Assembly (NCBI RefSeq): GCF_963665995.1
Contig: NZ_OY762512.1
Coordinates: 682,001-746,000 of the forward strand
DNA: 64,000 nucleotides
Reading direction: 5' to 3'
Origin: Pleurocapsa sp. FMAR1
GTDB taxonomy: Bacteria > Cyanobacteriota > Cyanobacteriia > Cyanobacteriales > Xenococcaceae
The translations under genes were made by a program, and so were the position numbers. Of the stretch, positions 30,355-43,587 are shown one piece after another; positions within the stretch are counted from its first letter, which is position 1; every line of letters begins with the position of its first letter. The notes beneath the pieces were generated by a model. That model was not told the DNA's origin and searched no databases. It was given only the letters and a program-made list of their open reading frames with translations.

Positions 30355-31790
30355 GAGAAAATTTTATTATGGACGAAAATACTGGTAATTTGATTAGTGG
30401 AACTGATGGAAATGACACTCTCAATGGTGGTGTAGGTAACGATACCATTGTCGGCGGTAAAGGCGATGACCTTCTAACTGGCAGTGAAGGGGATGATCGC
30501 TTCATTTGGGCTAATGGTGACGGTAGCGACATTATCGAAGGTGATGGTGGCAATGACGTAAGCCAAGTCAACGGTGCTTTAGAAGATGGAGATAGCTTTG
30601 AGTTAAGAGCCAACGGCGATCGCGCTGAGTTTGAAAGACTCAATTTAGGTACCTTTGTCTTAAACGAAGATAATGTTGAGCGGTTTGAAGTCAATAGTTC
30701 TGGTGGTGACGACATCCTCACGGTTCAAAATCTAACTGGCACCGACGTTCAACAAGTTGTTTTTAATGGTGAAGACGGTATAGATTTTCTAGATGCTTCT
30801 CTTGGCAATGTCGCCGTTGTGGCTGATGGCGGTGCTGGAGACGATATTCTATTTGGTAGTAGCGTGCCTGAAATTATCGACACCCTTAGTGGTGGTGAGG
30901 GTAATGATACTTTGGTCGGCAATAAAGGCAATGACATTCTAACTGGCGGTGAAGGAGACGATATCTTCGCTTGGTTTAATGGTGAAGGTAGCGACATCAT
31001 CGAAGGTGACGGAGGCAATGACGTTAGTCAAGTCGTCGGCGATTTAGCAGATGGAGATAATTTTCAATTAAGAGCCAACGGCGATCGCACTGAGTTTGAA
31101 CGACTTAATCTAGGTAACTTTGTCTTAAACCAAGATAATATTGAGCAGGTTAAGGTCTTTGGTGTTGATGGTGACGACATCCTCACGGTTCAAGATTTAA
31201 CTGGCACCGACGTTCAACAAGTTGTTTTTGATGGTGGATACGGTAACGATCTTCTAGATGCTACTCTGGGCAATGTCGCCGTTATGGCTGATGGCGGTGC
31301 TGGAGACGATATTCTATTTGGTAGTAGCGTGCCTGAAATTATCGACACCCTTAGTGGTGGTGAGGGTAATGATACTTTGGTCGGCAATAAAGGCAATGAC
31401 GTTCTAACTGGCGGTGAAGGAGACGATCGCATCATTTGGAGCAATGGTGAAGGTAGCGACATCGTCGAAGGTGATGCTGGCAATGACGTAAGCCAAGTCA
31501 ACGGTGCTTTAGAAGATGGAGATAACTTCGAGTTAAGAGCTAATGGCGATCGCGCTGAGTTTGAACGACTCAATCTAGATAACTTTGTCTTAAACCAAGA
31601 TAATGTTGAGCAGGTTGAGGTCAATAGTTCTGGTGGTGACGACATCCTCACACTTCAAGATTTAACTGGTACTGACGTTCAACAAGTTGTTTTTAATGGT
31701 GAAGACGGTAACGATGTTCTAAATGGTACTCTAAGCAATGTCGCCATTGTGGCTGATGGCGGTGCTGGAGACGATATTCTGGGTGGTAGT
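30355..31790 (+). repeat. Three tandem 465-bp units in the RTX gene
   Basis: The block starting GGCTGATGGC recurs at 30821, 31286 and 31751, each exactly 465 bp apart, with long stretches identical at the nucleotide level between units 1 and 2. Confidence 0.9.
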
Positions 31791-32054
31791 TTAAATAATG
31801 ATGATACTTTAACTGGCAATACTGGTGCTGATACTTTTACTCTCGGTTCTGGTGGCACAGATACCATTACTGACTTTAATTCCGCAGAAGGTGATATGAT
31901 TGCGCTTTCAGGTCTTGATTTGGGTATATCTTCTCTCGAATCATTGAGCTTTAACACTAATAATAATACGTTAAATCTAGGCGAAACTGAATTAGCGATA
32001 TTTGAAAATCTAGAACCAGGAGTCAATCCAATAGATTTCAGCTTTCTGGTCTAA
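30369..32054 (+). CDS. RTX-type calcium-binding repeat protein
   Basis: 561 residues, acidic, no signal peptide. It contains many GGxGxDxLxGGxGDD nonapeptides (for example GGEGNDTLVGNKGND), which form Ca2+-binding parallel beta-rolls. The protein is three tandem units of about 155 residues (465 bp each), followed by a C-terminal GADTFTLGSGGTDTITDFN segment typical of RTX C-termini and type I secretion. Probably secreted or at the cell surface; no enzymatic domain is seen. No type I secretion genes are adjacent. Confidence 0.88.
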   Translation: MDENTGNLISGTDGNDTLNGGVGNDTIVGGKGDDLLTGSEGDDRFIWANGDGSDIIEGDGGNDVSQVNGALEDGDSFELRANGDRAEFERLNLGTFVLNEDNVERFEVNSSGGDDILTVQNLTGTDVQQVVFNGEDGIDFLDASLGNVAVVADGGAGDDILFGSSVPEIIDTLSGGEGNDTLVGNKGNDILTGGEGDDIFAWFNGEGSDIIEGDGGNDVSQVVGDLADGDNFQLRANGDRTEFERLNLGNFVLNQDNIEQVKVFGVDGDDILTVQDLTGTDVQQVVFDGGYGNDLLDATLGNVAVMADGGAGDDILFGSSVPEIIDTLSGGEGNDTLVGNKGNDVLTGGEGDDRIIWSNGEGSDIVEGDAGNDVSQVNGALEDGDNFELRANGDRAEFERLNLDNFVLNQDNVEQVEVNSSGGDDILTLQDLTGTDVQQVVFNGEDGNDVLNGTLSNVAIVADGGAGDDILGGSLNNDDTLTGNTGADTFTLGSGGTDTITDFNSAEGDMIALSGLDLGISSLESLSFNTNNNTLNLGETELAIFENLEPGVNPIDFSFLV

Positions 32055-32165
32055 GATTAGACCTCGAAAGTGTTTGAAGATTTGATATTTGCTGTGTATC
32101 ACCAGAGATATTAGTTGGTCGTAAAAAGGGGGTATTGAACATGAAATGTAAGCTTTAAAACGTCT

Positions 32166-32219
32166 ATTTAAAGCGAACCATGAATATCCCTTTTCTTTTT
32201 AATGCTTTTATACTATATC
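32166..32219 (+). repeat. Downstream copy of RTX-gene flanking repeat
   Basis: Direct-repeat partner of 30185-30240 (ATTTAAAGCGAACCATGA ... TTTTTAATGCTTTTATAC). Confidence 0.65.
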
Positions 32220-32439
32220 TATACATCAGCTTTGCATAATTTCAGGCGATCGCTTTAAATATGTTAATAGCTACTATTTTGGTTTTTCTCTAAAATATTA
32301 TTTCTATACCTCTATTTTTTTCATACTCTCGGTGTCTCCTCGTTTTCTCACCATCAATCTTGTGTCGTAGTCTACATCGGTTTTTAACGACAAAACTTGT
32401 ATATACTTCTGTAGCTATTAAACTTTTTTGCTGAAGTTT

Positions 32440-32934
32440 ACAAGAAATATTTCAATTACATTTGTTTCATCTTTTTCTACTTGCTGTATTATTTTCCCTC
32501 TTGCTTCTAGTTCGATCTCCAAAATTAAATATCGTATCTCTGATTAAGAATATATTCTCTCGCTTACTGCAAATTTTTCTCTGTATATTCTAACCCTCGT
32601 CTTGATAAAGCTTATATATTCTTTTAGCTGCCTTATTTCTTGTGTTAACTATACATCCCCTTCTTTGACGATAATGCTTTTGTCAGCCTTTATCAAGGTA
32701 TGTTTCTGCTGCTCTGTTTGGGTTTGTATTGTATAAAATAACTCAAGATATTTGTATATGTAACTAACAGAAAATCCTGTTTTTCTAGCAACTATACAGA
32801 TAGTAATTTATTGCTTTTTATCTACTAAAGTAGCGATCGCTTCTTGATTCAGTCACTTCTTCTGTTTTTGATAATGCTTTTTGTCTTCTTTTCTATCTAT
32901 ATTCAACCAGTGCTGCTATCTGTTCATCTGACAT
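32440..32934 (-). pseudogene. DUF6262 / Tn554 TnpC-like gene, decayed
   Basis: Reading from ATG 32934, the start MSDEQIAALVEYR is followed by a stop; then, after a frame change, AIATLVDKKQ, VARKTGFSVSYIYKY (the helix-turn-helix-like core) and, further on, QEIRQLKEYI from the coiled-coil part. Order and spacing match the DUF6262 family found beside Tn554-type tyrosine recombinases. Several stops and shifts make it dead. End approximate. Confidence 0.75.
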
Positions 32935-32989
32935 TTTTTTACCTGGATACGATTTAGTTAGTAGCGATGTAAATATTGTAGACGTTTTC

Positions 32990-33027
32990 AAGGCAGTACC
33001 GATAATTACTGTTATCGGTACTGCCTT
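32990..33027. terminator. Strong symmetrical hairpin
   Basis: Arms AAGGCAGTACCGATAA and TTATCGGTACTGCCTT pair perfectly (16 bp) around a 6-base loop. There is only a short T run, so it could be a weak terminator or a palindromic repeat. It lies 6 bp beyond the stop of a possible small ORF on the minus strand. Confidence 0.55.
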
Positions 33028-33033
33028 AAATTC

Positions 33034-33177
33034 CTATACCTCAATCATTCCCAGCATGACATCTGAAATAGATTTTACTTTCTCAAGATAGTCAACGCTA
33101 TATACATTATTCGCCAGAGTTCTTGTCATTTCACCCTGTTTAATATCTTTTAGGACATAGATCATCATCTTATTCAT
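33034..33177 (-). CDS. Possible small protein, unknown
   Basis: 47-codon frame beginning MNKMMIYVLKDIKQGEM and ending VMLGMIEV. The open frame continues upstream of this ATG. It has a protein-like composition with alternating hydrophobic and charged residues, and its stop is followed closely by the hairpin at 32990-33027. I recognise no family; it could be a gene remnant. Confidence 0.25.
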   Translation of the reverse strand: MNKMMIYVLKDIKQGEMTRTLANNVYSVDYLEKVKSISDVMLGMIEV

Positions 33178-33378
33178 TATATAAAAAGCATTTAATTTAA
33201 GCTCTAATACCAGATTTATAATGGCACAGCCAACCTAGATCATGCTTCTATTAAATAGCATAGATAATCTAGATTATTTTCTGTTAAATTTGCTTTCTAC
33301 TATTGAATTTCAGATAATAAAATCAATAAAAGCTTTACTAAACTTCGGCATCTATATCTATATTTAACGTACGCCTAA

Positions 33379-33404
33379 TGTGTCATTACTTTAAGTATGA
33401 CACA
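33379..33404. repeat. 26-bp site (a): TGTGTCA-N12-TGACACA
   Basis: Perfect 7-bp inverted arms with a 12-bp spacer. First of seven sites of this kind within 8.4 kb. It lies 57 bp beyond the 3' end of the PNPOx-like gene. Confidence 0.85.
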
Positions 33405-33461
33405 CATAAATTGAGTGAATTTTAGCAAACGTCTTTTCTGTTTTCTACATAGATTTAATTC

Positions 33462-34127
33462 TTATTTCCCTCGACGATAATTGGTCAAATTAGACGATGG
33501 CGTAATCTCGTTAGTAAGTTTGGGATCTCGGATAAGAACTCCTGGTGTTATTTCCAATGGTAATTCTCCTGCCCAAATCGGCAATGCGTAATCTTCTGCA
33601 TCATCTGATGGTGAGCCAGTACGAACTTTCGCCGAACCTTCTTCAATCGGAAAAGAAAGCACAGTTGTGGCTTTTAATTCTTGAGAATTGGGAAGACGAG
33701 CATCTTCCCAGCGTCGAGGGATCATTTGTTCTGTAAAAGCTCGTAGAGCAGTCATTTTCTCGGTTTCACTTTCAACTAACTTAGCTTTACCAAACAAGAC
33801 TACAGAGCGATAATTCATTGAGTGATGAAATAAAGAACGCGCAATTACTAGTCCATCTAGTAACGTCACGGTGAAACATACATCAACGCCTTGTTGTAAA
33901 GTTTTGAGTAAGCGACTAACAGAAGAACCATGAAGATATAGGCGATCGCCTTCTCTGCCGTATGCCATCGGAATTACAAAAGGCTGAGTATCACTAATAA
34001 ATCCCACATGGGCTATCAGTGCTTCATCTAAAATATTGTAGATCAGTTCTCGCTCCTGACTACCTCGTTTTGGTAAGCGTTTAATTTTACTGCGTTTGGT
34101 TACTTGAAGATTATGAGAATCAGACAT
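33462..34127 (-). CDS. Pyridoxamine 5'-phosphate oxidase-like flavoprotein
   Basis: 221-residue split-barrel FMN-binding protein of the PNPOx-like/NimA type. The N-terminal AHVGFISDTQPFVIPMAYGREGDRLYLHGSS segment is typical of this fold. Such proteins bind FMN or F420 and vary in function; a true PdxH role is not shown. It is divergent from a MocR-type PLP-dependent regulator 102 bp away, a common pairing in which MocR controls the flavoprotein. Confidence 0.85.
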   Translation of the reverse strand: MSDSHNLQVTKRSKIKRLPKRGSQERELIYNILDEALIAHVGFISDTQPFVIPMAYGREGDRLYLHGSSVSRLLKTLQQGVDVCFTVTLLDGLVIARSLFHHSMNYRSVVLFGKAKLVESETEKMTALRAFTEQMIPRRWEDARLPNSQELKATTVLSFPIEEGSAKVRTGSPSDDAEDYALPIWAGELPLEITPGVLIRDPKLTNEITPSSNLTNYRRGK

Positions 34128-34172
34128 TGGTTATCTTTGTAGTTGTCTTTCTCTGACCAAGATAAAAAGAAT

Positions 34173-34214
34173 ATTGGTATGATTCAAGAGCCAATTTGAG
34201 TTTTTTATACCAGT
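34173..34214. promoter_or_regulatory. Possible MocR operator region
   Basis: ATTGGTAT (34173-34180) and ATACCAGT (34207-34214) form a 7-of-8 inverted repeat in the 102-bp divergent gap between the PNPOx-like gene and the MocR gene. An autoregulatory operator is a reasonable guess only. Confidence 0.35.
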
Positions 34215-34229
34215 CCACTTTTTAAAATT

Positions 34230-35681
34230 ATGGACTTAGCTATCCATCTAGATCGCGCTTCTACAACACCCTTGTATCAGCAGCTAATAGAAAAAATTCG
34301 TGATGCTGTATTAGAGGGAAGACTTAAGCCCAACCAAAAACTACCTTCATCTCGAAGTTTGGCAAAGTCTTTAACTATTTCTCGCTCTACAGTAGTTCAA
34401 GGCTACGAACAATTAGAGAGCGAAGGATACTTAGAAACTCGTCGTGGTAGTGGTACTTATATCTGTCATCGAATACCTGATGAATGGCTAAAACCGCAGT
34501 CAATAAAACCTGTAACAGCAAAGGTATTTAAGGCTTGTACCTTGTCCCGATTTGGCTTGAGTTTAACCTCTATAAAACAATTAGAAGTCTCAGAACCAGA
34601 TTATGAAATTAGCTTCCGCTACGGTAATCCTGCGGTAGAGTATTTTCCAATGCAACAATGGCGGAAGTTTTTGGCTCGCCACTATAAAGATTCGACCTTA
34701 CTTAATTATGCTTCTGATGCTACGGGATATTTCCCTTTGAGAATAGAAATAGCTAACTATTTAGGACGTTCTCGTGCGGTTCGCTGTACTCCAGAACAAA
34801 TAGTTATTATTAACGGTTCACAGCAAGCATTGGACTTGATTGCTCGTCTAACCTTAAATCCAGGGGATTGGGTAGCAATGGAAGAGCCTGGTTATCTTGG
34901 CGCACGCTACTGCTTTATGGGACAAGGGGCTAATTTACAACCTATAGCTGTGAACTCCGAAGGTTTAGACGTATCCGTTCTTAGTAAGAATCGTCAAAAA
35001 TTCAAGCTGATTTATGTCACACCTTCACATCAATTTCCTACAGGGGTTACTATGTCATTATCTCAGAGAATAGCACTTCTCCAGTGGGCGCAGGAAACAG
35101 ACACCCTGATTATCGAAGATGATTACGACAGCGAGTATCGTTATGGAGAACAGCCAATTCCTGCTTTGCAAGGAATGGATCGAAGTCAGTCAGTAATTTA
35201 TATTGGTACTTTCTCCAAAATTCTCTTTCCGTCTTTACGAATTGGCTATTTAGTTGCTCCTCCTGCATGGATACCGATTATTCGTCAAGCTAAGTGGTTA
35301 TGCGATCGCTTTTGCCCAACTTTAGAACAGTATGCCCTTACCGATTGGATTGCATCAGGACATTTTGAACGACATATTCGGCGAATGCGACATCTCTACG
35401 ATCTGCGTCGCCAAGTTTTAATCAAAGCTCTTAAAGGCTATTTTGGAGCCAGGGTAACTATTTTGGGAGAAAATGCAGGTATTCATGTAATGGTAAAAAT
35501 TGAAACTGGTTTAGCCGATGATATTGTTATCCAAAAAGCTGCTGCTGCTGGAATTGGCTTGATAAGTGCCAGGGAGTATTATTTAAAACCTCAACATCAA
35601 GGAGAATTTATCTTCGGTTATGCCCAGCTAGAAGAAACTCAAATAGAACAAGGCATCTTGAAGCTGTCTCAGATATTTTGA
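34230..35681 (+). CDS. MocR/PdxR-family transcriptional regulator
   Basis: 483 residues: N-terminal GntR winged helix (about 10-75; PLYQQLIEKIRDAVLEGRL, LPSSRSLAKSLTISRSTVVQ) fused to a fold-type I aminotransferase-like domain (about 110-480) with IIEDDYDSEYRY and the PLP lysine in IGTFSKILFPSLRIGYL. MocR proteins sense PLP or amino-acid adducts and often control PLP salvage or GABA genes. Divergent from the PNPOx-like gene. Its last ~25 codons and 3' flank are duplicated at 38168-38300. Confidence 0.92.
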   Translation: MDLAIHLDRASTTPLYQQLIEKIRDAVLEGRLKPNQKLPSSRSLAKSLTISRSTVVQGYEQLESEGYLETRRGSGTYICHRIPDEWLKPQSIKPVTAKVFKACTLSRFGLSLTSIKQLEVSEPDYEISFRYGNPAVEYFPMQQWRKFLARHYKDSTLLNYASDATGYFPLRIEIANYLGRSRAVRCTPEQIVIINGSQQALDLIARLTLNPGDWVAMEEPGYLGARYCFMGQGANLQPIAVNSEGLDVSVLSKNRQKFKLIYVTPSHQFPTGVTMSLSQRIALLQWAQETDTLIIEDDYDSEYRYGEQPIPALQGMDRSQSVIYIGTFSKILFPSLRIGYLVAPPAWIPIIRQAKWLCDRFCPTLEQYALTDWIASGHFERHIRRMRHLYDLRRQVLIKALKGYFGARVTILGENAGIHVMVKIETGLADDIVIQKAAAAGIGLISAREYYLKPQHQGEFIFGYAQLEETQIEQGILKLSQIF

Positions 35682-35754
35682 TTGGCAGAGAAAAGACTAG
35701 GAAAAATAAGATTTTGTTACATTCTCTGCATTATTTTCTGTGGAACAAATAATA

Positions 35755-35780
35755 TGTGTCATAAATAAAGTTTTGACACG
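35755..35780. repeat. 26-bp site (b): TGTGTCA-N12-TGACACG
   Basis: Seventh base of the right arm differs; spacer TAAATAAAGTTT is 12 bp. It lies 74 bp after the mocR stop, between mocR and a metG fragment. Its left half matches site (c) and its right half site (d). Confidence 0.85.
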
Positions 35781-35868
35781 CTACTAAAATAAGTTCGTTA
35801 GGCTGATATGTAAAATATGCAAATGAATGGTAAATCAAAAGAAATTAAGCAAATAATTAGGAGAAGCA

Positions 35869-35958
35869 ATGAGGTATTTAATTACCAGTGCATTACCTTA
35901 TATCAACGGCATTAAACATCTTGGCAATTTGGTGGGTTCGATGTTGCCACCAATGTAA
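35869..35958 (+). pseudogene. metG 5' fragment, copy 1
   Basis: [27 protein letters not shown], the class I Met-tRNA synthetase N-terminus with its HIGH-like motif, ends in a stop after 29 codons. An intact AGGAG ribosome-binding site and ATG remain. A second, longer copy lies at 39105-39352. Confidence 0.85.
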
Positions 35959-36254
35959 AGCGATCGAGTAGCCAAGAATTACAGCGATCGCTGTACCAAA
36001 TAAACTCTAGTTTATTTAGTACAGAAAATTGGAACGAGATTTCAATGGTTTGATGGGGCTAATTCTCCGAGGGTCTAACTGGTACACAAAATTAAATTCC
36101 CAAAGAATCTCTGTAAAGGAGATGCAGTAAAGCTTTGTTCTACGTTGTCCACTAAATTGGACGGCAAGCGCGTGATTCTTGGTTCGCTTGCTACGCAAAC
36201 CCCTTTAATTGATGTAAATATCCATTTAGTGCAAAAGCAATCCTTATTCTACGT

Positions 36255-37751
36255 TTACTCGCATTTGACAACTGGTGAAGCCGTTGAATAAATAGGTCGA
36301 TGATATAATGCTTGCGAATTATTAGGTCGAAAAGGTTTCTGAAAAACAGATTCCATTAGCTTATGGAATATCCCATATTGTTTAATTTCTGGAATCTCGC
36401 TTGTTTCTTCTTTTAGTAGGTGAAGCTCTATTGTTTGAGTAGAGCGTTCTCCCTTGATAAGCCATCCTATCGATTTATTAACTATAGAAAAGTCAGAAAC
36501 TTCAATCGGTAGTTGCTCTGAAGACGATTCCCAAAAAGGAATAAATTGATCTACATAAAAAGCAGTAACTAAAGATCTCAAAGACCATAAACAGCTACCC
36601 GCTCCTGAATATCTATTCAAAACACTTATGTTCTGACCACAATAGCCTTGTGTTACTGTACCCTCACGTAAGGCATCATGCTGAATAAAAAATGACCAAG
36701 TTAGATCTAGAACTCGATAAGCAAAACCTGGAGATATAAGGTCTGGTGCTATTAACGTTCCCGCGATTATTGGTGCTGGAGCTCCAAGACGATAACAGGT
36801 ACTTCTTCCCATCATTGGAAATCCATTCTTACTAAATAAGTATCGATAAAACTCTAAAAACTCTGTCTGCGTAGATTGAATAAAATCTGGATCGAATTGC
36901 GGGTCTATTTGATCTAGCCAGAAAAGAGTATAGTGAACTGCCCAGGCATTATAATAATCAAATCCCTTAGGAGGATCGTTAAACCAACCTTCGCCGGAGT
37001 AAAGGCGTTTGTACTTTTGATATTTTTCTTGGATTTCCTTATTGTATTTAGGATTATTAACTCCCAAACCTTGTAAAGACTTCAAAGTAACTACTGGAAA
37101 TAGTAGCCAATTATTATCAATAACTTTTCGCTTTATAACTCCCTCTAGCCAAGATACAACTTGATTTTGTTCTTCAATCGAAAAATTTGAGTATAAAATA
37201 TTGCGACTAATCCACAAACCTAGCGCAATGTCTGCTGCTTCGACAATGCGCTGGTCTTGATCTTTTATGTCTCCCCAATATTCAGGGTTGTTTGGATCTG
37301 TACCAGCAATTATTCCTTGACGCAAAATTTGAATGAAATTTACTTTTTCGCCATCAAGCTCTAACGTAGCCTCATTTCCAGATGCGAGATATGCCGCCGC
37401 TAGAGGAAAAAAGCGAGAAAATCCTTCTAAAGCATCAACTCTGAGTCCATGAGAACTATGTTCTCCAGGATAATAGACCAATGCTCCATTTTGTGACCGA
37501 TACTTAACGAAACCCAACGCAAAATACTCAAATAGCGATTGATAACGAGTAGCTGGCGATTTATTATTATCGGTAAGAAAAGATTTTTTGATACTTATAT
37601 CGGCTATATTATGGTCTTGAAATGGTTGATTTTTTTTACTCCAACCCTCTACAGGTGGATATTTATTTGTCAGTAGTTTTATGCTTGTAACAATTGCAAG
37701 CATAATTAAAAAAATTGCTACTAATTTAACTATTTTCTTTGATGAAAGCAT
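36255..37751 (-). CDS. DUF2264 family protein, membrane-anchored
   Basis: 498 residues with an N-terminal signal-anchor (about 7-27, KIVKLVAIFLIMLAIVTS), so the rest is probably periplasmic or extracellular. Conserved DUF2264 features: GALVYYPGEHSSHGLRVDALEGFSRFF and SPGFAYRVLDLTWSFF. DUF2264 proteins have an alpha/alpha-barrel fold suggestive of glycan-processing enzymes, but the activity is unknown to me. It lies inside the segment between the two copies of the mocR-3'/metG-5' duplication, so it may have arrived with that rearrangement. Confidence 0.75.
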   Translation of the reverse strand: MLSSKKIVKLVAIFLIMLAIVTSIKLLTNKYPPVEGWSKKNQPFQDHNIADISIKKSFLTDNNKSPATRYQSLFEYFALGFVKYRSQNGALVYYPGEHSSHGLRVDALEGFSRFFPLAAAYLASGNEATLELDGEKVNFIQILRQGIIAGTDPNNPEYWGDIKDQDQRIVEAADIALGLWISRNILYSNFSIEEQNQVVSWLEGVIKRKVIDNNWLLFPVVTLKSLQGLGVNNPKYNKEIQEKYQKYKRLYSGEGWFNDPPKGFDYYNAWAVHYTLFWLDQIDPQFDPDFIQSTQTEFLEFYRYLFSKNGFPMMGRSTCYRLGAPAPIIAGTLIAPDLISPGFAYRVLDLTWSFFIQHDALREGTVTQGYCGQNISVLNRYSGAGSCLWSLRSLVTAFYVDQFIPFWESSSEQLPIEVSDFSIVNKSIGWLIKGERSTQTIELHLLKEETSEIPEIKQYGIFHKLMESVFQKPFRPNNSQALYHRPIYSTASPVVKCE

Positions 37752-38167
37752 TATCTGAATTAAAACTTTTTGACATTTTTTTTTTCCGTAGTTGCACTAT
37801 TAAAAATAAAACGATTAGTTTTTCCGTTTCTATTTCCTCGCTCTGTACTGCTAAAAATTGCTTGATCTCTTTTTTTTCGGCTACTAACTTTGGTTTTTTA
37901 CTCTAATTTCTCTTTTGGAACTTTTTTCATGAGATTTCTGCTGCATCAAATAAATCGCAGCAGCTCGATCTCCCTACAAATGTGACCTCGAACTCAGAAG
38001 CAAGATAGTATTCTAATTCATTCAGATTCCATTCATTTTTACTTTATAGAAAAAAGGCGAGTTGCATTTTTGATAAAATTGTAGTAGGGTGCTGCATATT
38101 TGTCTATCAATATTACCACAATCAATGGGATTAGCAAAAAAGACATCTCCAATAACTTGTAACTAAG

Positions 38168-38300
38168 TTTTATCGGTTATGCCCAACTAGAAGAAACTCA
38201 AATAAAGCAAGGCATCTTGAAACTATCTCAAATATTCTAATAAGTAGAGAAAAGACTAGGAAAAATAAGATTTTATCTTATGCGCTGCATTGTTTTCTGT
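38168..38300 (+). pseudogene. Duplicated 3' end of mocR
   Basis: Codons for GYAQLEETQIKQGILKLSQIF and a stop, plus about 60 bp of 3' flank, closely match 35614-35742. Only the last ~25 codons are present. It marks a segmental duplication. Confidence 0.85.
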
Positions 38301-38324
38301 TCCGTTACTCAAGTAAAACTAAAA

Positions 38325-38350
38325 TGGGTCATAAATAAAGAAGTGATACA
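38325..38350. repeat. 26-bp site (c): TGGGTCA-N12-TGATACA
   Basis: The most diverged of the seven sites, but the spacer is again 12 bp (TAAATAAAGAAG). It ends 26 bp before the MOSC gene start. Confidence 0.75.
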
Positions 38351-38376
38351 TTTCTTCAAAATAAGGAAATATTTTA

Positions 38377-38925
38377 ATGAATGCAAAAGTAATCGCCGTA
38401 AGTATTAATACAAACCATTCATTTAGCAAAGACAACCAAGAAAGCATCAAACTATTAGCAAGATTGGGTGTAGAGGGAGATGCTCACGCAGGAGAAACAG
38501 TTAAGCATAGATCCAGGGTAGCTAAAGATCCCAGTCCCAGTCAACCTAATTTAAGACAGGTACATTTAATTCATGCAGAATTACATGATGAATTAAAAAC
38601 CAAAGGTTTTGATATCTTTCCTGGTCAGATGGGAGAAAATATAACTACCAAAGGAATAGACTTACTTGGTTTGCCTACTAATACCAAGCTGCACATTGGA
38701 AATAAGGCTGTAATTCAAATAACTGGATTGCGTAATCCCTGCGCTCAACTAGACAGTTTTAAAACGGGCTTAATGGCTGCTGTTTTGAATAAGGATAGAA
38801 AAGGTAATCTTATTCGTAAAGCGGGAATTATGGGCATTGTGCTTGCGGATGGAACAGTAAGCGCAGGAGATAGTATTCTTATTCAACTTCCAGCCAAACC
38901 CTATCGATCGCTTGAACGAGTTTAA
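38377..38925 (+). CDS. MOSC-domain protein
   Basis: 182 residues, a stand-alone MOSC (molybdenum cofactor sulfurase C-terminal) domain. Conserved GENITTKGIDL, and Cys122 in LRNPCAQLDSF, the cysteine that in related proteins carries sulfur or binds molybdenum cofactor. YiiM-like proteins of this size detoxify N-hydroxylated bases; that role is possible, not shown. An AAGGAA ribosome-binding site precedes the ATG. The gene is flanked exactly by sites (c) and (d). Confidence 0.88.
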   Translation: MNAKVIAVSINTNHSFSKDNQESIKLLARLGVEGDAHAGETVKHRSRVAKDPSPSQPNLRQVHLIHAELHDELKTKGFDIFPGQMGENITTKGIDLLGLPTNTKLHIGNKAVIQITGLRNPCAQLDSFKTGLMAAVLNKDRKGNLIRKAGIMGIVLADGTVSAGDSILIQLPAKPYRSLERV

Positions 38926-38950
38926 AAACATATTTTAAAAGAGCAGCGAA

Positions 38951-38976
38951 TGTTTCATTAATTTATTTTTGACACA
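38951..38976. repeat. 26-bp site (d): TGTTTCA-N12-TGACACA
   Basis: Spacer TTAATTTATTTT, 12 bp. It starts 25 bp after the MOSC stop. Confidence 0.85.
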
Positions 38977-39104
38977 TATAATACAAATTATCCAGCAATG
39001 CCTGATATGGAAATAATTAGACGTAATGCCTTAGATGCGATCGCTATAAAATATGTAAATGAATGGTAAATAAAAAGAAATTAAGCAAATAATTAGGAGA
39101 AGCA

Positions 39105-39352
39105 ATAAGGTATTTAATTACCAGTGCATTACCTTATATCAACGGCATTAAACATCTTTGCAATTTGGTGGTTCAATGTTGCCAGCCGATGTGTATGCTC
39201 GATTCTTAGGACAAGAGTGAGAAACAGTACTTTTTATTTGCGGTACAGATGAACATGGAACTCCTGCTAAACTAGCTGCATGGGAAGAAGGATTAAATGT
39301 CGAAGATTATTGCCAACGTCAGCATGAGCGACAAGCAAAAGTTTATGATGAG
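39105..39352 (+). pseudogene. metG 5' fragment, copy 2
   Basis: The start codon is ATA where copy 1 has ATG. The sequence then reads [17 protein letters not shown], a frameshift, PADVYARFLGQE, a stop, and [20 protein letters not shown]...[15 protein letters not shown], covering about the first 85 residues of methionyl-tRNA synthetase. Clearly non-functional. The upstream 50 bp match copy 1 closely. Confidence 0.88.
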
Positions 39353-39411
39353 AGAACCTATTTAACTATAGTTTCAAATTTAGAAAATTAAGACGTTAAA
39401 AAAACAAAATT

Positions 39412-39711
39412 ATGGCAACTTATCAAGTAACGCTGGTTAACGAAGCAGAAGGCATCAATCAAACTATTGAGGTGGCAGACGATCAATATATATTCGACGC
39501 AGCAGAAGAGAATGACCTAGATTTACCTATATCTTGCCGTTCTGGTTCTTGTTCTAGCTGTGCAGGTAAAATCTTGTCAGGAACAGTGGATCAATCTGAG
39601 CAAGCATTTTTAGATGATGAGCAAATGGAACAGGGATTTGTTTTAACCTGTGTTGCTTATCCCACATCCGATTGCAAAATCCAGACTCATCAAGAGGATG
39701 AGATTTTATAA
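39412..39711 (+). CDS. [2Fe-2S] plant-type ferredoxin
   Basis: 99 residues with the four cluster ligands Cys42, Cys47, Cys50 (CRSGSCSSC) and Cys80 (VLTCVAYP), typical of photosynthetic ferredoxin. The acidic surface and end (HQEDEIL) resemble PetF, but the position outside a photosynthetic context suggests an accessory paralogue. It follows the metG fragment; no partner enzyme is adjacent. Confidence 0.93.
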
Positions 39712-39741
39712 GCTGGTTTTTTCACCAACATCCATCTAAAT

Positions 39742-39863
39742 AATGGTTCGGACAAAATTTAATTAGTAACGAAAAAATTAGGTATTTGAGGCTTATCTTA
39801 GACTGGGATAGCTAACGATAAAGTGGGCTTTTAGAGCTTTTATCTAAAGCTGTCCGAACTATT
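39742..39863. mobile_element. MITE-like element, 122 bp
   Basis: Terminal inverted repeats AATGGTTCGGACA and TGTCCGAACTATT (12 of 13 positions). AT-rich interior, no gene. It lies just downstream of the ferredoxin gene. Confidence 0.6.
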
Positions 39864-39962
39864 GCTTAAATCAATACTGGCTTTAATTTCCTTTCTAGCT
39901 ATTTCTAAAGCCTTATCTGCTGTGTAATATATTTCGTCGGGCTGATATAGCGAAACAGGCAT
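39840..39962 (-). CDS. Possible small ORF or gene remnant
   Basis: 40-codon frame beginning MPVSLYQPDEIYYTADKALE with protein-like composition; its last codons run into the 39742-39863 element. On the other strand, 39965-40056 reads LEILNLDDFEVDEGLDNYQHMKRVMAEI, another coherent tail without a head. Both look like leftovers of small genes; I recognise neither. Confidence 0.25.
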   Translation of the reverse strand: MPVSLYQPDEIYYTADKALEIARKEIKASIDLSNSSDSFR

Positions 39963-40063
39963 TTTTAAACTTGGAAATTCTCAATTTAGACGATTTTGAA
40001 GTAGACGAAGGATTGGATAATTATCAGCACATGAAGCGAGTTATGGCAGAGATTTAATGGCGA

Positions 40064-40666
40064 TTAATTAGGTAGGGCTTGAACAAAATCAGCTTCAATA
40101 GTTAGAGGGCTTTCCTTTAGTCCTCGGTTGATAAAATTAATTAAAAAAGTAGAACTCAATCTAGGTAGGCGATCGCTTATCTTTATTTGCTGATAATTAG
40201 TGCTGGTTAATCTATAGAACTCAACATTTCCATTCTGCCAGAACCAGACTTCCTCAACCCCAAGCAGCTTGTATTTATCTAGATCGGCAGTACCGCCACT
40301 ACTATAAACTACTTCTATAGCCAGATCGGCAATAGGCTTACGAGTATCGAAGGAATAAGAACTATCGGGTTCTTTGCCAGCTAGAGGAGGATTTTTTAGC
40401 GTGGTTGAACCCATTGGGAAATAGGGCAAACTATACTTACGACAGTAAGCAGTGATTAACCCAGATATTGTTCGCTCGATGACCTCATGATTATAAGATG
40501 GCGACACAATAGTAATAATTCCCTCTAAATAAGATAGGCGATAGCTATTCGCTTCTTGAGTTAGGCAATCGTAATCCTCCCAAGTCATACCTGACAGGCT
40601 TAAGACCTGATCTTGTAAAGTCGATCTATCTCGATTAATTGATAAATTTAATAAGTCTGTAAACAT
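40064..40666 (-). CDS. Uma2-family putative endonuclease
   Basis: 200 residues of the DUF820/Uma2 family, a PD-(D/E)XK-fold group greatly expanded in cyanobacteria. Core motif: EPDSSYSF, IADLAIEVVYSSG then KYKLLGVEEVWFW, giving the D-x-E-x-K catalytic layout. Family function is unproven in most cases. The gene has its own ATG and lies 53 bp downstream of a small HTH gene on the same strand. Confidence 0.88.
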   Translation of the reverse strand: MFTDLLNLSINRDRSTLQDQVLSLSGMTWEDYDCLTQEANSYRLSYLEGIITIVSPSYNHEVIERTISGLITAYCRKYSLPYFPMGSTTLKNPPLAGKEPDSSYSFDTRKPIADLAIEVVYSSGGTADLDKYKLLGVEEVWFWQNGNVEFYRLTSTNYQQIKISDRLPRLSSTFLINFINRGLKESPLTIEADFVQALPN

Positions 40667-40719
40667 TTTTTGAATGACAGTTTCTAGATTAAAGGTGGAA
40701 TAGATTCATTCAAAGCTTA

Positions 40720-40986
40720 CTAATTCGTTTTTGTTTCAGAATTATAATTTTGAAACATCTCATAGTAGGGAATGTTCTTTTTAATCGCATAATCAGTTTT
40801 AGAAGAATAAAACTCTCCATGGCGATCGTGAAAAGCCCAGGTAGTAGGAAAGTGTATAATAGCTCCCATTGTTAAGGGAACACCCGATTCTTTAAGAGTT
40901 TTAATACGTCGGTGTAGAGTGCTTCTAGATAAGCCAGTTTCTTCAATTAACTGGCGGTAACTATATTTTTTGCCATCAATTAGCAT
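40720..40986 (-). CDS. Small helix-turn-helix protein
   Basis: 88 residues. The N-terminal YRQLIEETGLSRSTLHRRIK is a clear HTH; the rest (TTWAFHDRHGEFYSSKTDYA) is not recognised. It could be a DNA-binding regulator or a mobile-element accessory protein. Site (e) lies 26 bp upstream of the start, the same spacing as site (c) to MOSC. Confidence 0.6.
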   Translation of the reverse strand: MLIDGKKYSYRQLIEETGLSRSTLHRRIKTLKESGVPLTMGAIIHFPTTWAFHDRHGEFYSSKTDYAIKKNIPYYEMFQNYNSETKTN

Positions 40987-41012
40987 AATGATTGTTTAGA
41001 ATTTGATTGAAC

Positions 41013-41038
41013 TGTGTCAGAAATTTAATTTTGACACA
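41013..41038. repeat. 26-bp site (e): TGTGTCA-N12-TGACACA
   Basis: Perfect 7-bp inverted arms, spacer GAAATTTAATTT. Confidence 0.87.
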
Positions 41039-41111
41039 TACTTAACTATTTGGCTTTAAAATCCTATTAGCGCGAATGAATATATACCGAGTAGTTAGAA
41101 TAAAGACATTT

Positions 41112-41137
41112 TGTTTCATTATTTTAATTTTGACACA
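41112..41137. repeat. 26-bp site (f): TGTTTCA-N12-TGACACA
   Basis: Spacer TTATTTTAATTT, close to those of (d) and (e). It lies 70 bp before the next gene. Confidence 0.87.
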
Positions 41138-41207
41138 AAACAATAGCAAAATTCAGCTTATTTAGAATCACTTTTAATCTGTATCCTTATCCTTCATCCT
41201 TGAAAAC

Positions 41208-41675
41208 ATGGCTTTACCCAGAATAAAAATAGCAAAAGACAAAGCTGAGTTGGTTCAAAAACTATTAGATGCAAAAGGAACAACGGGGGCGTTTCAAACC
41301 TATGCAGATATTATTGCTTTTGCAGCCAGTTTAGGAGTCAAACATCAGAAAAGAGTCAAGTTGACGGAAATATCCCAAAGTGAACCTGCACCAATCAGTT
41401 TAGAAGTATTTATCTCTCGTGGCTACGATCGCCTGATTAAACTTATTGCAGTTACCGAAACTCAAAATATCAAAATTCTCTCGGCGGAGAATATAGCCAT
41501 AGAAGCACAAAGAGTTCTTATTTTTGAAGAATATGCCAACGGTGGTCTAGAAAAACTAGGCTATGAATTACGAGGGGCGGTAGATTATGCAGAAAGATTA
41601 GTTTTGATTCTTAATGCAGAGAGATTTAGGACTGAAACTAGTGGCGAAGAATTTGATTTAAGTAGATTTCTTTAG
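41208..41675 (+). CDS. DNA phosphorothioation-associated protein 4-like
   Basis: 155 residues. I recognise the cyanobacterial-type dnd-associated protein 4 family: RIKIAKDKAELVQKLLD, FQTYADIIAFAASLGVKHQKR, EPAPISLEVFISRGYD, IFEEYANGGLEKL and the C-terminal GEEFDLSRFL. Such genes normally sit with dndBCDE phosphorothioation and restriction genes; none is seen in this window. It is framed by sites (f) and (g). Confidence 0.75.
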   Translation: MALPRIKIAKDKAELVQKLLDAKGTTGAFQTYADIIAFAASLGVKHQKRVKLTEISQSEPAPISLEVFISRGYDRLIKLIAVTETQNIKILSAENIAIEAQRVLIFEEYANGGLEKLGYELRGAVDYAERLVLILNAERFRTETSGEEFDLSRFL

Positions 41676-41684
41676 TAGCTATAA

Positions 41685-41710
41685 TGTTTCAAAAGTAAAA
41701 TAATGACACA
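41685..41710. repeat. 26-bp site (g): TGTTTCA-N12-TGACACA
   Basis: Spacer AAAGTAAAATAA. It starts 9 bp after the stop of the phosphorothioation-associated gene. Confidence 0.85.
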
Positions 41711-41876
41711 TAAAAAAGTATTGAAAAATACAAAATGATTTCGTTTGTACTAACCAGTGCAGTTGGTCAAGAGACTTAATAGCATATAGCTAGCTGCCTC
41801 AACTAATTAATTGCCTTAACCCGAACTGAGGTTTTTATAGCTAATTTGAACATAGTCCTTAAATTTTAAATAATGA

Positions 41877-42779
41877 ATGATTTTTCCAGTCAACAATTTT
41901 ATTGGCGAAATAGCTGCTTTAAGTGCTGCTTTACTTTGGGCGATCTCCTCCGTTGTCTATATTCATTTGGGGTTAAAGATTCCCCCGCTACAGCTTAATC
42001 TTTATAAGGGCATAATAGCGATCGCTTTTATTGCCATAACTTTACTTATTCAAGGTGCAGCCTTGAGAGATTTATCCCCCCAGACACTATCTTTACTATT
42101 CCTTAGCGGTATAGTTGGCATTGGCTTGGGAGATACAGCTTATTTTGCAGCCTTAAACAGCTTAGGGGCGAGACGTACTCTCTTGTTAGAAACCTTTTCG
42201 CCACCAATAGGTGCATTGCTGGCTTTAATTTTCATTGGCGAACAGCTAACTACGAATGCTTGGTGCGGTATTTTGTTAACTATTTTGGGGATAGCCTGGG
42301 TTATTAGCGAACGAAACCCTGTAGATAATATCAGCGTGTCACGGCAAGGTATAATCTGGGGAATCCTAGCTGCGATCGCTCAAGCAGTTGGCGCAGTTAT
42401 CTCTCGTTTTGCTCTAACACAGTCAGATATAACCCCTTTAGCCAGCACTTTAATTCGTTTACTAGGTGGTACGGCGATTGTTTTGGGTTTAATATTTATA
42501 CCTCTACCTGTTGCTCAAAAACCTGGCATTAAATGGAAACTATCTTGGCATAGTCTAAAGATAATTGCGATCGCAGCTATGGGGAGTACCTATCTTGGCA
42601 TCTGGCTACAGCAAACATCACTTAAGTTTGCACCCACAGGAATTGCTCAAACTTTTTTAGCCACCAGTCCTTTATTCGTAATGCCCATAGTTGCCCTACA
42701 AGGAGAAAAGATTAGTTGGCGAGCAATACTAGGGGTGATAGTCTCTTTAAGTGGAATTGCTCTCATTTTTGTTCGCTAA
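41877..42779 (+). CDS. EamA/DMT-family transporter
   Basis: 300 residues with ten predicted membrane helices in two EamA repeats (about 5-140 and 155-298). Drug/metabolite transporter superfamily; typical IAALSAALLWAISSVVY opening and GEQLTTNAWCGILLTILGIA at the end of repeat 1. Substrate unknown. An alternative ATG lies 4 bp upstream but in another frame. Confidence 0.88.
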   Translation: MIFPVNNFIGEIAALSAALLWAISSVVYIHLGLKIPPLQLNLYKGIIAIAFIAITLLIQGAALRDLSPQTLSLLFLSGIVGIGLGDTAYFAALNSLGARRTLLLETFSPPIGALLALIFIGEQLTTNAWCGILLTILGIAWVISERNPVDNISVSRQGIIWGILAAIAQAVGAVISRFALTQSDITPLASTLIRLLGGTAIVLGLIFIPLPVAQKPGIKWKLSWHSLKIIAIAAMGSTYLGIWLQQTSLKFAPTGIAQTFLATSPLFVMPIVALQGEKISWRAILGVIVSLSGIALIFVR

Positions 42780-42799
42780 ATATCGAGAAGATTCATAAG

Positions 42800-43587
42800 T
42801 TACGCCTGATGTGAATTAACTTTCTTTTTTCATCTTAGAAAAGATTTATCTATTCCCGTAAATAGAGAGATTTATCGTTTAAATTAAATTCAAGCGAGTT
42901 TAACATTATGCGGATTCAGACTCTAGCTAATCATGGGAAGAATCGATATTAATGTTTACGTCAGGGGTTTGGGGAGGGTCGTAACGTCCCCAACAGGGGG
43001 TTTGGGGGAATTTTTCCCCAGGAATAAATCACGGTTTTTACAGACCAATTTCATTTAGAAGCGATAATAAGCATTTTTTTCTTGGTCAGCATTCCCTTGC
43101 TAGCGGGCGTGGAATAAGCTTCTTGGACAGAAGCTTATTCCACGCCCGCTCTGACGGCGACGCGGTGAAGCAGTTGCGGTGGTGAGACACTTGCGTTGCG
43201 GACGGCAGTTTTTGAGGCGAGGAAACGCCCCCGTTTAGGGGGCTTGTTCCACTCGCCTGTTGGGACAGAATACTCTGACCCAACCTCGACAGTTCCTTTA
43301 AGCGGGGGAACCCCGCCAACGGACTCAGATGCGGACGAAGCGTCCTTTCTCGCAAAACACGCCTCGTCTATGACCCGTTGCGAGACACCCTCAACAGTCC
43401 TCTGCGGAGGGAAACCCTCCTGCAAGGCTGTTTCGCAAAACCGTTGCGGGGGTTCCCCCCGTTGAGGTACCTGCGGGGGGTATCCCTTGGTTGTCGAGGG
43501 CGAGCAAAGTGTCGAAAAGGTTCCCTGGCATAAGCAAAGGCACGAACCATGCGCGGGGGTCTGACCGCTAATTCACATCAGACGTAA
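42800..43587. mobile_element. Repeat-filled element bounded by terminal inverted repeats
   Basis: TTACGCCTGATGTGAATTA (42800-42818) is repeated inverted at 43569-43587 with one mismatch. The inside holds a perfect 20-bp-arm hairpin (43102-43150) and a dense GC-rich array of CCCCCG/CGGGGG hairpins from about 43150 to 43560. Long open frames on both strands here are composition artefacts. No transposase. Confidence 0.65.
43102..43150. repeat. Perfect 20-bp-arm hairpin
   Basis: AGCGGGCGTGGAATAAGCTT and its exact complement separated by 9 bases. It is not followed by a T run. Confidence 0.9.

Follow-up and report, generated by a model that had tools for sequence, protein, structure and literature searches.

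The core boxes of integron attC sites follow the consensus RYYYAAC/GTTRRRY, and hix-type invertase sites are 26 bp long, with an A/T-rich inner part, an asymmetric central dinucleotide and an outer part suited to a helix-turn-helix (HTH) domain. The pdif sites of Acinetobacter plasmids measure 28 bp and consist of two 11-bp arms and a 6-bp centre; according to the source (PMC6449649), these short dyad sites bracket variable accessory genes and their enzyme, XerC/XerD, acts in trans, and a title in its reference list describes pdif modules with inversely oriented flanking sites. In Tn554, transposition is stimulated, and its orientation influenced, by TnpC (PMC3414803); structure prediction identifies this protein as the counterpart of Srap and GinD (PMC10214605), and its identity with GinD is reported to be low but significant (PMC5385486). 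Here, we consider a family of 26-bp sites, TGTKTCA-N12-TGAMACA, clustered in a 64,000-nucleotide stretch of the Pleurocapsa sp. FMAR1 genome (contig NZ_OY762512.1, positions 682,001 to 746,000; this whole stretch is called the window), together with C0, a small HTH protein encoded among the sites. C0 very likely binds these sites, and our tentative view is that the two mark an array of exchangeable genes.

Similarly to pdif modules, the array combines short dyad sites with variable accessory genes. It differs from them in that the sites are 26 bp long with a 7-12-7 layout, which does not agree with the pdif definition, face mostly one way rather than inversely, have a matching HTH protein and are found in cyanobacterial genomes. 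Integron cassette arrays also have directional palindromic sites that mostly face the same way, and variable cargo. However, the cargo here lies on both strands, the arms TGTKTCA/TGAMACA do not fit the attC core boxes (as compared with the consensus generally given) and no integrase gene was detected among the array proteins scanned in the window. In particular, the ten proteins scanned from the window, with the products of the eight listed array genes among them, gave no sign of an IntI-type tyrosine integrase beside the array, the array open reading frames (ORFs) of relatives being scanned only in part. With hix the sites have in common the length of 26 bp, the A/T-rich inner part, the asymmetric central dinucleotide and an outer part that an HTH domain could fit. 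Unlike in hix systems, serine recombinases are not distributed like the sites, a cognate one is not found in every site-bearing genome, and C0 has a weak match to HTH_7 (E 0.017) without a match to the Resolvase catalytic domain.

The window contains eight sites, listed here with the strand where it is assigned:

Site a, 33379 to 33404, minus strand: TGTGTCATTACTTTAAGTATGACACA; oriented with C0
Site b, 35755 to 35780, plus strand: TGTGTCATAAATAAAGTTTTGACACG; its left part and left flank resemble site c, its right part resembles site d
Site c, 38325 to 38350, plus strand: TGGGTCATAAATAAAGAAGTGATACA; two mismatches, 26 bp 5' of the MOSC-domain gene, centre opposite to C0
Site d, 38951 to 38976, minus strand: TGTTTCATTAATTTATTTTTGACACA; 25 bp past the MOSC stop codon
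Site h, 40732 to 40757, no strand assigned: TGTTTCAGAATTATAATTTTGAAACA; overlaps the C0 3' end, orientation ambiguous owing to a palindromic centre
Site e, 41013 to 41038, minus strand: 26 bp 5' of the C0 start
Site f, 41112 to 41137, minus strand: between C0 and C1
Site g, 41685 to 41710, plus strand: 9 bp past the C1 stop codon, centre opposite to C0

The original prediction, made from the sequence of the window, described seven of these sites. All seven are present with arms exactly 12 bp apart, and its distance of 26 bp from sites c and e to the following start codons is correct; it overlooked site h. It also proposed that sites d, f and g point in the same direction, which is true of their arms, but their central bases put d and f in the direction of C0 and g in the opposite one. 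We extended the search to the whole genome (5,429,540 bases in one contig), as had been suggested. The pattern as first formulated, TGTKTCA-N12-TGACACA, has five exact matches, all in the cluster, and five places with one mismatch, two in the cluster (35755 and 40732) and three elsewhere. The latter three have 4, 7 and 8 G/C among the 12 spacer bases, compared with 0-2 in the cluster. The slightly broader TGTKTCA-N12-TGAMACA has six exact matches and its reversed control none. All six are again in the cluster, and copies are not evenly spread over the genome, an outcome that would have counted against the cassette model of the original prediction. When up to three mismatches are allowed, there are 20 matches on both strands of the window (100 shuffles gave 9.5 +/- 3.5, the largest value being 18). 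No known RNA was found at 32000-43500 of the window, and no tRNA in its 64 kb.

Of the 13 genomes available for the window's genus, 12 contain the pattern TGTKTCA-N12-TGAMACA, as do 20 of the 27 family genomes (Pleurocapsales), where its matches are mostly clustered. In four genomes (G007, G013, G025 and G026; the window genome is G000) they are spread over two or three contigs, and contig 154 of G013 looks like background. The reversed pattern gave a single match in the 27 family genomes (in G018). In a class sample of 242 genomes the pattern occurs in 13, of which 11 are outside the window's genus and have one match each. A profile search for C0 in the family returned one match per genome in 20 genomes, identical with the site-bearing ones. 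The seven genomes lacking C0 also lack a site match, and three of these are 98-100% complete. In other words, the presence or absence of C0 and that of the sites are concordant in 27 of 27 genomes. Of the class sample only two genomes, both of the window's genus, have a C0 profile match, and when the genomes of about 85,000 species were scanned with two short peptide patterns as seeds, 16 loci were obtained: 14 in Pleurocapsales and two in Streptomyces, the latter resembling C0 over 35 residues. C0 was not found in phage, plasmid and viral collections. The sole match to a stricter site pattern in the viral collection is at 332-357 of the contig IMGVR_UViG_3300001485_000144 (L112). It is also worth pointing out that contig 183 of G025, without C0, has sites around AraC-type genes and near a large non-ribosomal peptide synthetase gene (L045 6962-9758 and L046 10200), and the next listed site there is about 18 kb further.

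C0 itself is a short protein:

C0, 40720 to 40986, minus strand: 88-residue HTH protein (Pfam HTH_24, E 1.4e-7)

Its identity to 14 aligned relatives is 72-86%. HTH models match the N-terminal half of the protein, and the HTH part is similar to regulators of the BirA type and to PH1519 regulators. The AlphaFold model, which is of moderate confidence (mean pLDDT 76.8, pTM 0.51), has a further helix pair at residues 63-84; a resemblance of the second half to a NUMOD-type motif was considered but finds no support in Pfam. Comparison of the model with PDB folds gave no match at E <= 0.001. A site lies 15-33 bp upstream of the C0 start in all 20 genomes that have the gene, with at most one mismatch in 19 of them and two in G014. 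In 18 of the 20, a second site (up to two mismatches) covers the C0 3' end, where the protein usually ends in ..MFQN or ..MFQD. Because the distributions of C0 and of the sites match and a site precedes the C0 gene, we consider it very likely that C0 binds the 26-bp sites.

To characterize the sites as a group, we used 103 of them from 25 loci in 20 genomes, each with no more than one mismatch and with A/T at 8 or more of the 12 spacer positions; window site c, having two mismatches, is outside this set. Spacer lengths of 6-19 were tried at the 25 loci, and the matches numbered 103 at length 12, one at 18, three at 19 and none at any other. Nearly all of the 99 distinct sites carry T at position 12 (97 sites) and A at position 15 (98 sites). 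A palindromic central dinucleotide is seen in 7 of the 103 sites and in 7 of the 99 distinct ones, where 39.4 would be expected, an asymmetry of the kind known from hix; complementarity between positions 8 and 19 is found in 18 of the distinct sites, the expected number being 37.2. With one genome taken from each of six genera, the centre is palindromic in 2 of 35 sites (11.2 expected). Since palindromic centres and complementary positions 8 and 19 are so rare, the 26-bp sites are directional. Oriented by their centres, the 91 sites of loci with C0 include 66 that face with C0, 18 that face the opposite way and 7 ambiguous ones. If C0's own sites are left out (n=57), the corresponding numbers are 43, 11 and 3. 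Among the seven window sites counted, a, d, e and f face with C0, b and g against it, and h is ambiguous; site c, outside the count, faces as site b does. The binomial values for the orientation bias (7e-8 and 7e-6) should not be taken as probabilities, because related sites are inherited.

The genes between and beside the window sites are these:

Pyridox_ox_2 protein, 33462 to 34127, minus strand: cargo between sites a and b
MocR-type regulator (GntR and aminotransferase domains), 34230 to 35681, plus strand: cargo between sites a and b
DUF2264 protein, 36255 to 37751, minus strand: between sites b and c
MOSC-domain gene, 38377 to 38925, plus strand: recurrent cargo
2Fe-2S ferredoxin-type protein, 39412 to 39711, plus strand: between sites d and h
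Uma2-family gene, 40064 to 40666, minus strand: between sites d and h
C1, 41208 to 41675, plus strand: DNA phosphorothioation-associated protein 4 (TIGR04062, E 6.5e-58), frequent cargo

The cargo varies among genomes and includes, in addition to C1, genes of the MOSC, NUDIX, GNAT, ferredoxin, Uma2, MocR and DUF2264 types as well as TPR proteins, a multicopper oxidase, an Na/Ca exchanger, a histidine kinase, an FAD-binding oxidoreductase and TetR. C1 is not tied to the C0-site system. It is found in 21 of the 27 family genomes, five of which lack C0, and is missing in four genomes with C0 (G003, G009, G014 and G025); five stretches around C1 genes distant from an array (G013, G018, G023, G024 and G026) contain no site even at two mismatches. 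Its structure model was unusable (mean pLDDT 37.2). The sites avoid genes: 23 of 103 are wholly inside an ORF of at least 80 residues compared with a mean of 60.5 for random placement. In the gene context defined by ORFs of at least 150 residues together with core genes (C0 of G003 is missing from this gene set), 26 sites are between convergent, 27 between divergent and 31 between tandem genes, 13 are at an edge and 6 inside a gene. The respective numbers for random non-coding places are 25.6, 27.2, 36.9, 13.3 and 0. Sites thus show no preference for promoters, the convergent class, 26 of 103, being the size expected by chance. Nor does every copy keep a fixed distance upstream of co-regulated genes, an arrangement that the original prediction had regarded as fatal to its cassette model. 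Single genes do have sites close by: in G003 a site precedes MOSC by 22 bp, several genomes have one 43-79 bp ahead of C1, and proximity to the stop codon is seen for C1 in several genomes and for NUDIX in G011.

Possible traces of recombination were looked for in the sequences that flank the sites. Two pairs of similar flanks are present in the window:

Flank A, 35614 to 35793, no strand assigned: from the MocR 3' end to just beyond site b
Copy A', 38173 to 38365: extends past site c, 77% to flank A over 193 columns
Flank B, 35811 to 35956, no strand assigned: after site b
Copy B', 39047 to 39192: after site d, 95% to flank B over 147 columns

The arrangement A-b-B stands beside A'-c-MOSC-d-B', and the two look like empty and filled versions. 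The flank B copies resemble part of metG, namely the start of a methionyl-tRNA synthetase gene. As a caveat, the A and B copies differ in divergence and the homology of B starts about 30 bp past site b and about 70 bp past site d; other histories of this arrangement are possible. To look at flanks more generally, 113 sites (at most two mismatches, at least 9 A/T) were compared in within-genome pairs by site-anchored similarity, amounting to 1,164 flank tests. In the null set, flanks were compared with reversed flanks of random sites, and the maximum score was 13 in 20,000. One side exceeded the null in the pairs 10194/10526 of L041 (right 36, left 2), 9577/10068 of L044 (left 24, right 8) and 9169/9651 of L045 (left 16, right 3). 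The pair 7131/9733 of L045 had a left score of 22 and a right score of 9, and the pair 1636/4321 of L040 equals the null maximum. The window pair b/c is outside the matches of this test because of an 11-bp gap. One-sided flank homology at these few sites is what recombination junctions would be expected to leave. Flanks were also compared in search of an empty chromosomal site; the stretches of seven relatives share only the EamA gene with the window, which proves nothing.

A second protein, C2, has a bearing on the enzyme that might act at the sites. In the window it is represented by a remnant:

C2 remnant, 32598 to 32870, minus strand: broken DUF6262/TnpC-like gene with three stops in the match

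C2, a DUF6262 protein, is encoded beside the array in eight genomes, apart from this remnant in G000. Array-type C2 (E <= 3e-63) is present in 11 genomes, every one of which has C0, and weaker DUF6262 matches occur both with and without C0. In G003 the C2 gene is far from the array, and in G006 and G025 it is on a separate contig. Relatives of C2 on three plasmid stretches, similar over the first 25-40% and in two of three cases annotated as DUF6262, directly follow one or two tyrosine recombinase or integrase genes. This context is a hint, not proof, of a link with tyrosine recombinases. The array-adjacent DUF6262 protein and the position of its plasmid relatives after recombinase genes recall the Tn554, GInt and SE elements with their TnpC, GinD and Srap proteins (PMC3414803, PMC5385486, PMC10214605). 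In contrast to these elements, no recombinase accompanies the C2 remnant among the ten window proteins scanned, and the accessible parts of the three papers mention no multi-copy 26-bp sites.

There are two main readings of what binding by C0 would bring about, both of which were already raised in the original prediction as cassette sites or operators of a dimeric regulator, and both of which need a DNA-binding protein concordant with the sites such as C0. The one that we tentatively prefer, giving it nearly even chances, is a family-specific cassette-like array in which directional recombination-type sites would be marked by C0 and a candidate recombinase would act in trans. It is favoured because the sites are directional, biased in orientation and indifferent to promoters, the cargo is variable and flanks are shared on one side at a few sites; the pair of seemingly empty and filled versions in the window is in agreement with it. 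According to this scheme, C0 would bind the 26-bp sites, probably in dimeric form with each 7-bp arm contacted by one subunit, and gene-sized segments would be joined, duplicated or lost at directional crossover-type sites. The enzyme for strand exchange, most plausibly a tyrosine recombinase, would be encoded at another locus, and C0 would assist it as an accessory factor, joined in many genomes by the orphan TnpC-like C2. A bolder version, possible but short of even chances, is a previously undescribed integron-like gene-capture system of one Pleurocapsales family: a two-HTH protein C0 marks the directional 26-bp crossover sites, the C0 gene is itself a bracketed unit, and a borrowed recombinase, joined in many strains by the orphan TnpC-like protein, moves the segments. 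Several observations weigh against a cassette-like array. The scan of the ten window proteins revealed no recombinase (no Phage_integrase match at E <= 0.001), tyrosine recombinases are present in 27 of 27 genomes, so that their distribution is uninformative as a match to the sites, and C2 is broken in the window genome. A serine recombinase as the cognate enzyme is unsupported: some Resolvase match exists in 27 of 27 genomes, but its presence does not follow the sites, and the site-bearing G000, G014 and G021 have only partial matches (best E 6e-7 to 2e-6), although these pass the Pfam cut-off. The losses of MOSC in G008 and of NUDIX in G006 look like internal deletions in which gene ends and sites are kept, and the partially recurring order C1-C0-MOSC is more conserved than free shuffling predicts. 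In five chosen pairs the site half beside the shared flank is not significantly more similar than the other (7/65 vs 14/65 mismatches, p = 0.15). The idea that sites are in general stop-codon-proximal elements is likewise unsupported (15 of 103 sites, where 13.8 would be expected of non-coding places and 6.1 of places taken from anywhere). In addition, sites that were inherited enter our counts as if they were independent, and a site located so near the C0 start would suit autoregulation.

The last point leads to the second reading, the operator cluster, which we regard as possible but rather doubtful. Here C0 would be an autoregulated repressor or activator of its own gene and its neighbours, and turnover of the accessory region would explain the cargo variation. 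It is favoured because of the site before C0 and because a recombinase was not found among the scanned array genes of the window. As in autoregulated small HTH repressors, the protein adjoins its sites, one of which lies directly before its own start in every genome with C0; its HTH part is of a regulator-like kind, and sites also precede MOSC (26 bp in G000, and as given above in G003) and C1. Nonetheless, unlike the operators of such repressors, the sites are directional and ignore promoters, being between convergent genes as often as random places are. Dyad operators need neither a directional centre nor an orientation bias, the retained site at the C0 3' end also weighs against this reading, and the one-sided flank homology is left unexplained by it. 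An improbable alternative is that the sites are architectural, with C0 bridging them to fold, silence, anchor or segregate the region in a partition- or insulator-like manner. Several sites around the gene of their likely binding protein, their disregard for gene direction and the retention of the C0-site pair in 20 of 27 family genomes would all be compatible with such a role. However, adjacent sites are separated by anything from 23 to 7,551 bp, the ten window proteins include no match to a partition-type ATPase, the fold comparison of C0 likewise had no match at the threshold given above, and cargo variation and flank sharing are not addressed. Still less probable are fossil repeats, that is, former ends of mobile elements multiplied by segmental duplication and short-repeat slippage, of which only C0's own sites still work. 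Duplicated segments that adjoin sites, the broken C2 of G000 and degenerate sites such as c are in line with this, but clustered sites are absent wherever C0 is absent, and the strict spacing, the near-invariant T12 and A15 and the conserved arms (in 99 distinct sites, from a list chosen by the arms) suggest continuing selection or recent copying. Finally, some weak three-mismatch matches elsewhere in the window are due to chance, but a chance or compositional origin of the family as a whole is negligibly probable given forward matches in 20 of 27 related genomes against the one reversed-control match. We rejected it on the basis of the shuffles, the pattern counts in genome and family with their controls, the spacer-length scan and the concordance with C0.

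Among the matches listed in a literature search, which covered neither most subscription journals nor any bioRxiv preprints, there was no published description of the C0-site system. If the cassette-like array is real, it would represent a cyanobacterial gene-capture platform made of a DNA-binding protein and its sites and lacking a resident recombinase; it would parallel integrons and dif modules in a different lineage and might serve as a tool for cyanobacterial engineering. If the sites form an operator cluster instead, we would be dealing with a lineage-specific regulator-site pair whose directional sites ignore promoters, which would itself need an explanation. In either case, the concordance of C0 and the sites throughout the family provides a directly testable candidate binding partner.

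Two neighbouring features may also be recorded. A gene for an RTX-type calcium-binding repeat protein (30369-32054 of the window) adjoins the array. A 49-bp inverted repeat (90%), which is outside the site family, is located at 43102-43150, 3' of the EamA gene.

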